Below are positions 629 through 7,790 of a stretch of DNA of 33,836 nucleotides, one piece after another. The stretch comes from Ignavibacteriales bacterium (GTDB taxonomy: Bacteria; Bacteroidota; Ignavibacteria; Ignavibacteriales; Ignavibacteriaceae). The position numbers were made by a program, and so were the translations under genes. The stretch lies in assembly GCA_012517155.1 (NCBI GenBank), contig JAAYVN010000103.1:1-33836 (forward strand), written 5' to 3'. The notes beneath the pieces are model-generated. The model did not search any database, was not told where the DNA came from, and was given only the letters and a program-made list of their open reading frames with translations. Numbering within the stretch: position 1 is the stretch's first letter; every line of letters starts with the position of its first letter.

Positions 629-1318
629 ATGGCAATTCTAATTGGATCTGTCCTCGGTAACTTCAGAGGACGACTTGGTAATATCTGCGCACGCATTAAT
701 GCAGGCAGAACAATATTCGCAGCTCTCCCCAGTTCTTTTAAGGACGCTAATACTCAGGAGCAGCAGGATTACAGGAGCAAACTTACAACTTCGGCTAAAT
801 TTTGCTCCGGCATAAATAACAATCTCACACTCCGCAAACTCTGGAAACTGCGGACTCCCGAATTGCTTTCACCCTTTAACTATATGGTTAAAGTGAATGC
901 AAAGAAGGTAGGGCTTATTGCTCCCACCGGAGACTGCCTTACATCTCCACCGCAAGGTTTTGCCTTTACAGCAAACAGCATAAGCGTTACTGAAAGCGCA
1001 GTAACAGCAACTATCCCGGCGCTCGAGACGTTTCTGTCCCTTCCCCCTGAAGCTTCAGGAGTTAAATTTGCAGGCATAGTCTGTTACTCCGACCCCCTGA
1101 ACGAGGGAATGGAGGTGTTTGTGGTTACTTCGCTGAATAAGACGGTTGAAAGTTACAACTTCACGACTCAGTATTCACTCTCAATTGATCTGAGTCCGGT
1201 GCAGGTGGCTCTGGGCGCCGTCTATCAGAAGAAGACGGTCTTCCTGGGGGTTATTGTTACGGATGAGTCGGGGAATGACATTCTTGCCCATAGCGATTCA
1301 GTTTCGGAAGTACTCTAA
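629..1318 (+). CDS. DUF6266-like protein
   Basis: A 229-residue protein of unknown function. The N-terminus shows the pattern I associate with the Bacteroidota family DUF6266: a Gly-rich start with GNFRGRLGN at residues 11-19, then a basic/polar stretch, LPSSF at 33-37, a Thr/Gln-rich segment and RSKLTTSAKF at 49-58. The rest is predicted mostly beta. No signal peptide, sorting tail or membrane segment is visible. The ATG is preceded by AGAAAGGA at a reasonable distance, which supports this start. The gene stands alone, flanked by 21-bp direct repeats (490-510 and 1447-1467), with a folded element before it and a terminator after it. The family call rests on remembered N-terminal pattern similarity, so coding is more certain than family. 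Confidence 0.72.
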   Translation: MAILIGSVLGNFRGRLGNICARINAGRTIFAALPSSFKDANTQEQQDYRSKLTTSAKFCSGINNNLTLRKLWKLRTPELLSPFNYMVKVNAKKVGLIAPTGDCLTSPPQGFAFTANSISVTESAVTATIPALETFLSLPPEASGVKFAGIVCYSDPLNEGMEVFVVTSLNKTVESYNFTTQYSLSIDLSPVQVALGAVYQKKTVFLGVIVTDESGNDILAHSDSVSEVL

Positions 1319-1545: not shown

Positions 1546-2143
1546 CTATTTAATAAATGTCATCTTCCTCACACTTACATTTTCTCCTGAGGATAGTTTG
1601 TAAATGTATGTTCCGCTGGCAAGTCCCGATGCGTTAAATGTATGGTTGTAACTACCTGCTTCCTGTTCAGCACTGACCAATGTTGCCACTTCATTTCCTA
1701 GTATGTCGAATAATTTCAGGGAGACATTCCCTTTTTCGGGTATTTGATAATTTATCACTGTGCTCGGATTAAAGGGATTTGGATAATTCTGGGACAGTCC
1801 AAAAGTTAATGGTTTAAGATTCTCAACTTCAACTTCGTTTGAATAAGCGAAAGTTCCGTCAAAATCAATCTGTTTTAAGCGGTAATAAGTTTTTCCTGAA
1901 GAATATCCGTTGTCCGTAAATGTATAGCTATTCATTTTTGTTGAGGTCCCGGTTCCGTTAACGAAGCCGATAGAGATCCATTCGCCGGTGGTTTTTTTCT
2001 GAACGGAAAAGCCGCGGTTATTGGTTTCTGTTGCAGTTGACCATTGAAGCACAACGCTACCGTCATCGGCTCCTGCGGAAATACCGCGAATGTCATCAAC
2101 AGTACAAACATCAATGACGGAAAAACGCAAAATGTTTTCTCAT
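1546..2143 (-). pseudogene. Decayed T9SS cargo gene (Por secretion tail fragment)
   Basis: The longest open frame (1546-2130, TTG start, 194 residues) is the C-terminal part of a secreted T9SS substrate. It has a fibronectin-like segment with WSTATETNNRG at residues 30-40 and a type A sorting domain with NYPNPFNPST at 115-124, ending in RKMTFIK. No signal peptide is in frame. Upstream, an ATG at 2143 with GAGG before it gives MRKHFAFFRH and then a stop. A second frame from about 2120 reads SLMFVLLMTFAVFPQ, a plausible signal-peptide core, just before the tail domain in the third frame. The simplest reading is that an internal deletion plus frameshifts joined the two ends of a larger cargo gene. 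A short expressed fragment cannot be excluded. Confidence 0.65.
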
Positions 2144-4816: not shown

Positions 4817-5860
4817 TTACTTTATTAAGAACTCGCGGCGATAGGGATATTTTTTTCTCATTTCATCAAAGTTCTTTGCTTCCGACTCTCTTAATAAACG
4901 GTCATCCCTCATTATATCATAAAACCGTGATAGTAATTCATTCAACTCACCGACCTTTTTTCCATAAAGTTCCTGTGTACTTACTTTACGTTCCATAACA
5001 GGCAGCACAGGCTGCCATTTGTTTTCTTTCCCCAGAAACGCACACAGTTTATCGTAAATAATTTTAGTTCCGTTTGCTTTCCCCTCTGTTGAGTATCCCG
5101 CAATATGCGGCGTAGCTATATCAGCCATTTTAAGGAGTTCCACATCTATATTTGGTTCATTTTCCCAGACGTCCAAAGCCGCTATTATTTTTTTCGTTTG
5201 CACTCCTCTTTTCAATGCCATGTTATCAATAACCTCTCCCCTAGAGGAATTTATAACAATTGCCCCATCCCTGAAATATTTTATATTTTTTTCATTAATC
5301 AGGTGAAAGCTGTTATCCTCCCCGCCTCTGTTTAGCGCAGTGTGGAAAGTAACCACATCACAATCCAGCACTTTTTCAAGAGGCAGATATTTTGAATCTC
5401 CGGACTTTCGTTTTAACGGCGGATCATTTAAGAACACCCGCATACCAAACTGTTCGCACAATTCCGCCACTCTTCCCCCAATTCTACCGACTCCAACGAC
5501 TCCAACCGAAAGATTTGTCGGATCCAGATGGTACTTATTCAGCAGATGAATCAATGCGCAGAGAAAATATTCCACTACCGAGTTTGCGTTGCACCCCTCC
5601 GCGTTTGTGAAGAACACTCCTTCCCTTTTCAGGAATTCCTTATCCACATGGTCATCCCCTATAGTTGCAGTTCCTACAAACTTAACACCGGTGCCCTTCA
5701 ACAATTCTTCGTTAATTTTAGTAACCGACCGGACTATCAGGACCTCTGCTCCTTCCAGGTTCTCTTTTCGCAGGGATCTTCCTTCCACCAGCACCACATC
5801 ACCCAGACTGCCGAATGCTTCCCGTGCAAATGTTATATTTTCATCTGCTACTATTTTCAT
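4817..5860 (-). CDS. pdxB: 4-phosphoerythronate dehydrogenase
   Basis: A D-2-hydroxyacid dehydrogenase that oxidises 4-phosphoerythronate in the DXP-dependent route to pyridoxal 5'-phosphate. The N-terminus (MKIVADENITFA, then VRSVTKIN and FVGTATIGDDHVD) closely follows E. coli PdxB. The NAD site is GVVGVGRIG at 120-128. The catalytic triad of the family is present: R207 in SSRGE, E234 in WENEP and H252 in TPHIAGYSTEGK. The short C-terminal domain keeps the YDIMRDD and RREF pattern that separates PdxB from SerA. At 347 residues it is slightly shorter than the usual 380. The gene is divergent from the HisH-like gene across a 152-base spacer and is not in a visible B6 operon. PLP made downstream would serve the tryptophanase at 30962. 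Confidence 0.9.
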   Translation of the reverse strand: MKIVADENITFAREAFGSLGDVVLVEGRSLRKENLEGAEVLIVRSVTKINEELLKGTGVKFVGTATIGDDHVDKEFLKREGVFFTNAEGCNANSVVEYFLCALIHLLNKYHLDPTNLSVGVVGVGRIGGRVAELCEQFGMRVFLNDPPLKRKSGDSKYLPLEKVLDCDVVTFHTALNRGGEDNSFHLINEKNIKYFRDGAIVINSSRGEVIDNMALKRGVQTKKIIAALDVWENEPNIDVELLKMADIATPHIAGYSTEGKANGTKIIYDKLCAFLGKENKWQPVLPVMERKVSTQELYGKKVGELNELLSRFYDIMRDDRLLRESEAKNFDEMRKKYPYRREFLIK

Positions 5861-6012
5861 TTGAGAATTATATATGAATAAACAATTTTTATTTGTAATC
5901 GCATTGATTATTAAAAATAAATACCATAAATTTCAATGTTAAATATATTTCAGATTTCTTCAATAAGAAAATAATCTGATATGCAAATATAAAGATAACG
6001 TCAGGATTTGTT

Positions 6013-6600
6013 TTGATAGGAATTATAGATTACGGAATAGAGGAAAATTCAGACCTTCTGAAGACTCTGGATCAAATGGGAGAAAAGTATCTGGTAAGCA
6101 ACGATGAATTTCAGATAACCGGTTGCTCAAAGATTATATTGCCGGATACGGATGATATCAGCTCAGCAGTGAAAAATCTGAACATCTCGAACCTTTTTAA
6201 TTATCTGCGACTGTATAAAAAACCGGTGCTTGGAATTGCTGCCGGATTGAAAATAATGTGCGAATTCGCAAACGAGGAAAACAAAGCATGTCTTGGCATC
6301 TTTCCTCTATCAACATCAAAATCCATGGACGAAAATTTCACATCCGGTAAATTCTACTCACTTAAATTCAGAGAGGATCATTTTCCCCGGCTAATGAAGG
6401 GAATATCCAAAGATGCCAAATTCTGTTTTCACCGACTGTTTGATTTCCCGTGTAATATTTATGCCACTTCCTGTATAGAGGAACTGGATTCAGTTTGTGC
6501 GATTGTGGAGAAGGATAACTTCACTGCTGTGCATTTCTCTCCTGAAAAATCAGGCGCTAACGGAATAATTTTACTCAAAAACTTTATTAATAACCCTTAA
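6013..6600 (+). CDS. HisH-like glutamine amidotransferase homologue lacking catalytic Cys and His
   Basis: A 195-residue protein that follows HisH along its length: IIDYG at 4-8, KIILPDTDD at 40-48, LGIAAGLK at 73-80, HFSPEKSG at 174-181 and LLKNF near the end. HisH is the glutaminase subunit of imidazole glycerol phosphate synthase. Here the nucleophile of GICLG is Ala76 (codon GCT) and the catalytic His of QFHPEKS is Ser176; only Glu178 of the triad remains. The GVGAF-type loop is also changed to DTDD. Glutaminase activity is therefore not expected, and a structural, binding or regulatory role is more likely. No hisF or other his gene is near. The start is TTG at 6013, with AGGA at 6003-6006. 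The stop is 5 bases before the serine hydrolase start, so the two are probably cotranscribed. Confidence 0.78.
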   Translation: MIGIIDYGIEENSDLLKTLDQMGEKYLVSNDEFQITGCSKIILPDTDDISSAVKNLNISNLFNYLRLYKKPVLGIAAGLKIMCEFANEENKACLGIFPLSTSKSMDENFTSGKFYSLKFREDHFPRLMKGISKDAKFCFHRLFDFPCNIYATSCIEELDSVCAIVEKDNFTAVHFSPEKSGANGIILLKNFINNP

Positions 6601-6605
6601 GTACA

Positions 6606-7790
6606 ATGAAAAAACTTATAATATTTTTTCTCTTTCTAAGCCCCTGCATTATATACTCACAGTTCCTTCCGGTAGTCACTCCGGAATCCGTGGGGCTTTC
6701 TTCAACGCGGCTTGCTTTTATTGACACACTTTTTAACAACCAGATTGCCGAATCTGTTATCCCCGGCGGAGTGGTCTTGGTCGCACGCCACGGAAAAATT
6801 GCATATCGAAAAGCCTTTGGGTATAAATCCCTTGAACCCCAAAAAGAAGTTGTTTCAATTGAAACAATTTATGATCTTGCTTCCGTCACAAAACCTGTTG
6901 CAACTGCCACTGCCATAATGATGCTGGTTGAGCAGGGGAAAATAGGATTGTTTGACTATGTTAAAAAGTATATCCCGAACTTTGCTCCTTCTATAGATTC
7001 ATCTGGAAAAGAACGTAATGCAGACATATATCACCTACTTACTCACACATCAGGATTGCCTGATTACATTCAGGCGGACAAGATACTTGCAAAATACAGT
7101 AATCCCACCCGCTTTGATATAATCAACGAAATTGCCACAGTCAAAAGAAATAATATTCCCGGAAAGGAATTCACATACAGCTGCCTAAATTTCATTACCC
7201 TTGCCGAAATTGTTAGCCGCGTTTCGGGTAAAACAATTGATAAGTTTACAAAAGAGGAAATTTATAAACCCCTCGGAATGATGAACACTTTTTATCTCCC
7301 TCCAAACAACAGGATCAAGGATATAGCACCAACGGAAAGGAACTCCGACGGTTCAATGATAAGGGGAGTTGTCCATGATCCACTCGCTTCGCTGGCAAAA
7401 GGAATTTCCGGTAATGCGGGACTTTTTTCGAATGTGGATGACCTGGCAATTTTCATGCAGATGATGATGAACGGTGGAATTTACAACAACACAAGGATCC
7501 TGGGAAAGTTTACAGTTGAACAAATGACCAAACCTTATAAACATGTCTCTTTTGCGGGTAGAGGCCTGGGCTGGGATTGTGATTCGGATTATATGGGGCA
7601 GCGCGGGGATATTTTCACGGACCATTGTTACGGACATACCGGATTTACAGGGACTTCAATTCTCGCTGTTCCGGAGAAGGATCTTTTCTTCATAATTTTA
7701 ACTAACCGGATTCATCCGTCTCCAAAGACTAACCTGCTGGCATTCAGAAGACTGATTGCCAACATTATAGCGGCTTCAATTATTGAATAG
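6606..7790 (+). CDS. Exported serine hydrolase of the beta-lactamase class C / DD-peptidase family
   Basis: A 394-residue protein with a signal peptide (about 1-18, MKKLIIFFLFLS core). The Pfam beta-lactamase fold is shown by the nucleophile motif S93-V-T-K96 in LASVTKP, a Tyr motif at Y191 (YSCLNF, matching the common YSDLNF form of this family) and HTG at 344-346 in GHTGFTGTS, which replaces the KTG box. Members cleave or transfer esters and peptides, including D-Ala-D-Ala carboxypeptidases, esterases and cell-wall modifying enzymes, so the substrate cannot be named. True antibiotic resistance is unlikely from this motif set. It follows the HisH-like gene by 5 bases without a clear ribosome site, suggesting translational coupling. 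A bidirectional terminator follows. Confidence 0.87.
   Translation: MKKLIIFFLFLSPCIIYSQFLPVVTPESVGLSSTRLAFIDTLFNNQIAESVIPGGVVLVARHGKIAYRKAFGYKSLEPQKEVVSIETIYDLASVTKPVATATAIMMLVEQGKIGLFDYVKKYIPNFAPSIDSSGKERNADIYHLLTHTSGLPDYIQADKILAKYSNPTRFDIINEIATVKRNNIPGKEFTYSCLNFITLAEIVSRVSGKTIDKFTKEEIYKPLGMMNTFYLPPNNRIKDIAPTERNSDGSMIRGVVHDPLASLAKGISGNAGLFSNVDDLAIFMQMMMNGGIYNNTRILGKFTVEQMTKPYKHVSFAGRGLGWDCDSDYMGQRGDIFTDHCYGHTGFTGTSILAVPEKDLFFIILTNRIHPSPKTNLLAFRRLIANIIAASIIE

Follow-up and report, generated by a model that had tools for sequence, protein, structure and literature searches.

Cys-less HisH-fold proteins of Ignavibacteriales point to a probable second function of HisH that outlives the histidine operon

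The locus and its product

The window (the whole stretch of 33,836 nucleotides analysed here) contains a frameshift-free open reading frame that encodes a protein of 195 aa and starts with TTG behind an AGGA sequence. The features of this locus are listed below; dead HisH denotes HisH-fold proteins without the catalytic cysteine.

4817..5860, minus strand: pdxB-like gene, divergent from hisH (NF001309, E=9e-115, 383.6 bits, below the cut-off of 434)
6003..6006, plus strand: AGGA, likely ribosome-binding site, 6 bases 5' of the TTG (read from the sequence)
6013..6600, plus strand: hisH relic, a HisH-fold pseudoenzyme of 195 aa with a TTG start (TIGR01855, 77 bits; AlphaFold)
6106..6108, plus strand: codon of Glu32, a residue invariant in dead HisH (43/43)
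6172..6225, plus strand: signature kinked helix, residues 54-71 (KNLNISNLFNYLRLYKKP; alignment of dead HisH and AlphaFold model)
6190-6192, plus strand: codon of Asn60, invariant, within the signature helix (alignment)
6238..6240, plus strand: Ala76 (GCT) at the position of the catalytic Cys (sequence and alignment)
6538..6540, plus strand: Ser176 (TCT) at the position of the catalytic His (sequence and alignment)
6606..7790, plus strand: exported serine hydrolase of the beta-lactamase fold (PF00144, Beta-lactamase, E=6.8e-60), with its ATG at 6606, 5 bases after the hisH stop

The top family for this protein is HisH (TIGR01855), with a full-length match of 77.1 bits that is below the curated cut-off of 105.4 bits; the match to the Pfam class I glutamine amidotransferase family (GATase, PF00117) scores 15 bits, also below the gathering cut-off of 22.8. 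The AlphaFold model has a pLDDT of 93, and the closest PDB structure is HisH from Vibrio cholerae (4gud, TM 0.87). At the positions of the catalytic triad the protein contains Ala76, Ser176 and Glu178, so that Glu178 alone is retained, and the oxyanion loop PGVG reads PDTD. The original prediction described a HisH fold with both catalytic residues replaced, in which the fold was kept and catalysis discarded; the full-length match and the two codons confirm the former, and the latter is supported. The protein belongs to the Cys-less signature HisH family, defined here by the absence of the nucleophile Cys combined with the presence of Glu32 and Asn60 (A76, E32 and N60 in this case). Elsewhere in the window, the 229-aa ORF at 629-1318 (plus strand) has no Pfam or NCBIfam match, and the 194-aa ORF at 1546-2130 (minus strand) encodes little beyond a type IX secretion (T9SS) C-terminal sorting domain.

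The genome that holds the window is 99.65% complete and lacks any histidine operon; histidine synthesis has been lost. No hisF above the cut-off is found in the window, as originally noted for the vicinity of the gene, or in the rest of the genome, where the top barrel match scores 78.7 bits against a cut-off of 294.55, and neither IGPD (hisB), nor hisD, nor another hisH is detected in this genome. The only other HisH match (35 bits, to a 513-aa frame at C91) probably represents GMP synthase, so an intact hisH hidden elsewhere in the genome is rejected. Given the absence of hisF, hisD, hisB and another hisH, the gene in the window does not duplicate a functional hisH, and the expectation of a second, intact hisH next to hisF is not borne out. 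The original prediction regarded the lack of such a copy as an argument against a new role; the copy is indeed missing, but a new role is not refuted by this, since the loss covered the entire pathway and spared only hisH. The presence of hisH alone does not imply histidine prototrophy.

Dead HisH across the order

Searching about 93 genomes from the order identified 43 Cys-less HisH-fold proteins in 41 of them (the presence of hisF was checked in the first 40 relatives, and for most of the others IGPD or the operon around hisH served as the marker). Because 42 other Cys-less proteins occur in the order, it is very unlikely that Ala76 and Ser176 result from sequencing errors at 6238-6240 and 6538-6540, a concern that accompanied the original prediction. 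None of the 43 proteins retains the catalytic Cys, which is replaced by Gly, Ala, Asp, Asn, Ser, Met or Leu, and the catalytic His site varies as well (His is kept in 10 of 40). Ala and Ser, which had been expected to be fixed among the orthologs, are therefore variable, and the fixed residues are instead Glu32 and Asn60, each present in 43/43 dead HisH from more than 25 genera. The equivalent of the HisF-contact residue Asn12 is retained in 7/43 proteins, that of Trp123 in 3/34, and the oxyanion Gly in 10-11/43 (the roles of hN12, hW123 and hG50 in HisF contact or the oxyanion hole are taken from PMC8115485); the equivalent of Lys181 is retained in 11/41.

The best conserved stretch of dead HisH is helix 54-71, with the pattern K-x-L-H-x-x-N-L-F-x-x-L-R-x-x-K-K-P, and nearly all of the proteins keep the rest of the helix in addition to Asn60. 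Codons for the conserved residues vary freely, which places the conservation at the protein level; a DNA-level element inside hisH, e.g., a dif site or an overlapping RNA, is rejected on the same grounds. Purifying selection, one of the original claims, is supported by dN/dS values of 0.05-0.19 in the seven pairs of dead copies with measurable dS (0.05-0.14 in pairs of catalytic HisH), and the reading frames are intact in nearly all 43 copies. In one genus (L082, L166 and L171 from G025, G091 and G092), dead HisH is encoded in 158-aa frames in which the N-terminal half, including Glu32 and the helix, is retained and much of the C-terminal half is missing. Two assemblies contain two dead HisH each (L147 and L150 in G062; L152 and L167 in G064), which may reflect a strain mixture or true duplication.

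The same signature is found in working HisH. The order includes 43 operon HisH with both an intact triad and the signature; these were sorted into signature classes by Glu32, so that the presence of Glu32 in 43/43 is a matter of definition, and the helix residues follow, with Asn60 in 42/43. Glu32 is present in 0/19 of the other operon HisH of the order and in 0/28 HisH from elsewhere in the phylum; the signature is also missing in 80 HisH from other bacteria and archaea, an outgroup that consists of the ordinary HisH returned by the search for related loci. By this comparison, the signature is an order-specific addition to HisH that is unnecessary for the HisH-HisF reaction.

The distribution of the dead form is complementary to that of the signature in operon HisH: the dead form is present in 0/43 genomes with a signature-bearing operon HisH, in 18/19 genomes whose operon HisH lacks the signature, and in 23/31 genomes without the operon (hisD is missing from 23/23 of these operon-less genomes that retain the dead copy). 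The difference between the two operon classes yields a Fisher p=1e-14, a value obtained on related and hence non-independent genomes. Phylogenetically independent contrasts number three with strong support and five in all, each in the predicted direction; three correspond to p=0.25. Several genomes have no signature protein at all: five genomes from three genera (G001/G050, G011/G057 and G066) contain neither operon nor relic, and G019 combines a signature-less operon with the absence of a relic, so that the function of the signature protein must be dispensable or replaceable. Three less complete genomes likewise lack both operon and relic. In the exceptional genomes, a search for a diverged or truncated relic with an N-terminal profile retrieved only chance-level peptides, and what else is missing from G001, G050, G011, G057, G066 and G019 could reveal the partner of the signature protein. 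Some genomes also carry an extra, signature-less catalytic HisH of the WbuY/HisH2 type (L061, L062, L122, L164 and similar); in G006, G011, G012 and G036, such a copy adjoins a HisF-like gene.

Gene order around hisH

Comparison of gene neighborhoods indicates that many dead hisH copies occupy the place of the former operon. In G027, the order is metallophosphatase-hisGDCBHAF(IE)-desulfurase(-like), and in G039, G084 and G073 it is metallophosphatase-hisH-desulfurase, with hisH alone between the same flanks. Within the genus g33, the operon of G033 adjoins the metallophosphatase gene, and only hisH is found at the same flank in G070/G071. The dead copy of G037 is followed by trp genes, the same ones that are located 3' of the operon in G029, G031, G038, G082 and G086. 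In the family to which the window belongs, thioesterase and MscS genes lie 3' of dead copies, as they do 3' of the operon in G003, G044 and G056. An in-place position of the hisH in the window is suggested by one flank, the other being uninformative: the divergent pdxB-hisH arrangement, shared with G020, matches the divergent pdxB-hisGDCBH of the complete operon in G008, and the pdxB-like product is 46% identical to the G008 homolog, with the qualification that pdxB homologs are also found, differently arranged, near other his loci. No other his genes or recognisable remnants are detectable near the 42 dead loci examined. In four genera (L065, L067, L076 and L307), clpC is located directly 5' of dead hisH and may be the other flank of the former operon there. 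A conserved neighbor that could be the partner of the dead protein was sought, and none was found; the neighbors are the genes that flanked the former operon.

Given that in-place operons persist in g33, among the other members of its family, and in the family of the window, it is argued that at least three independent operon deletions spared hisH. The protein tree, in which 37 dead forms belong to one clade, is at odds with independent in-place losses. Its terminal branches reach 3.8 changes per site and long-branch attraction is flagged, and for these reasons the gene order was trusted over the tree.

A candidate second function and its alternatives

Taken together, these observations are best compatible with the hypothesis, here considered likely, that HisH of this order has a second, non-catalytic function and that hisH outlived the deleted operon by virtue of it. 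The gene in the window would then be the last gene left of a histidine operon. The second function, which is predicted to be unrelated to histidine synthesis or glutamine hydrolysis, would use the face formed by Glu32 and the kinked helix 54-71 (Asn60, Arg66 and Lys70). Lineages that lost hisGDCB and hisA-F-IE would have retained hisH alone for this function through several independent deletions; afterwards, glutamine hydrolysis and HisF docking would have decayed, with purifying selection still acting on the second face. Where a lineage later carried a signature-less histidine operon, it would have retained the relic beside it, such that the second function is probably split from catalysis wherever a second HisH is present. 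The presence pattern, the loss of catalytic and HisF-contact residues, the conservation of the face, the gene order and the dN/dS values were computed, and from these we infer the binding role. The relic would most plausibly be a docking or regulatory subunit, i.e., a scaffold or regulator without chemistry of its own, in agreement with the original suggestion of a new binding or regulatory role, which appears likely. The face would bind a partner present throughout the order, conceivably a protein, and the combined identification of a binding site and a protein partner is offered tentatively, with the chances slightly against it.

The main alternative concerns this last step only and shares with the preferred reading both the in-place relic and the second function. 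The face, comprising Glu32, His57, Asn60, Arg66 and Lys70, could be a pocket for a small ligand, such as a phosphate-bearing metabolite, in which case HisH would be a metabolite sensor. In favor of such a pocket, the signature-specific residues (an acidic one where a short helix begins, the others in a basic helix with Asn60 at the kink) are polar and charged. Their placement, along one helix and at the beginning of a second while the fold is otherwise unaltered, is equally fitting for an interface. A change of the backbone caused by the signature is rejected, since a HisH that lacks the signature is modelled with the same backbone, also kinked at residues 59-61, and the signature accordingly amounts to side-chain chemistry on an unchanged fold. 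Small-ligand binding is deemed rather unlikely, although it is the best of the alternatives.

It is improbable that the signature reflects ancestry only, with the dead forms derived from the HisH clade of the order, the signature-less operons acquired by horizontal transfer, and no second function required. Some signature-less operon HisH do group with the outgroups (G041, G060-62 and G019), and there are only three to five independent contrasts. Common ancestry, however, leaves unexplained why this face is the most conserved part of the protein after all else has changed, and why hisH is the sole survivor in most operon-less genomes. Furthermore, in G039/G084 the operon HisH falls within the signature clade but has lost the signature where a relic that keeps it is present, a pattern that looks like division of labour between two HisH copies.

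The remaining possibilities fare worse. Sensing of glutamine or glutamate through the former active-site pocket, with no hydrolysis, would fit those relics in which His and Glu are kept and Cys alone is changed (e.g., in G006, G018, G022 and G039), but the pocket as a whole is not conserved, as the counts for His, the oxyanion Gly and the Lys181 equivalent indicate, and this function is highly improbable. Slightly less credible still is a decaying pseudogene or a neutral operon leftover that awaits deletion: fast overall divergence with long branches, loss of the catalytic and HisF-contact residues, and the shortened forms in one genus are all in line with decay, yet this reading is already contradicted by the intact frames, the low dN/dS and the invariance of Glu32 and Asn60, and the other seven his genes have vanished from the same loci without a trace. 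Finally, a functional link with the exported serine hydrolase encoded downstream, originally proposed from the 5-base spacing, can be practically dismissed, given that this neighbor is unique to the genome of the window (0/41 other dead-HisH loci examined) and that the neighbors differ between families.

The search for a partner can now rely on a list of residues (Glu32, Asn60, Arg66 and Lys70) and on sets of genomes that have or lack the trait. Compared with HisH, the glutaminase subunit of imidazole glycerol phosphate synthase (TIGR01855; PDB 1GPW and 4GUD), the relic has the same fold from end to end, the same ancestry and, putatively, the same genomic place; it differs in the absence of the catalytic Cys and His, the loss of the HisF-contact residues, the lack of HisF in the genome, and the extra invariant face of Glu32 and helix 54-71. 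WbuY/HisH2, which is paired with HisF2/WbuZ, is likewise a HisH outside the histidine operon and occurs in some of the same genomes, but these proteins keep the triad, adjoin a HisF-like partner and lack the signature. The relevant passages of a his gene survey published in 2021 (PMC8305728) report hisH2/hisF2 in Melioribacter roseus and HisH without group-specific structure, and contain no mention of Cys-less copies. Literature searches found no published report of a Cys-less signature HisH. HisH is a textbook single-purpose subunit, and a hidden second role, if true, would represent a path from moonlighting through loss of catalysis to divided labour. Moonlighting metabolic enzymes and pseudoenzymes that have lost catalysis and kept the fold for another role are a familiar theme; the present case differs in that the second role is deduced from the repeated survival of a single gene after deletion of the entire operon.
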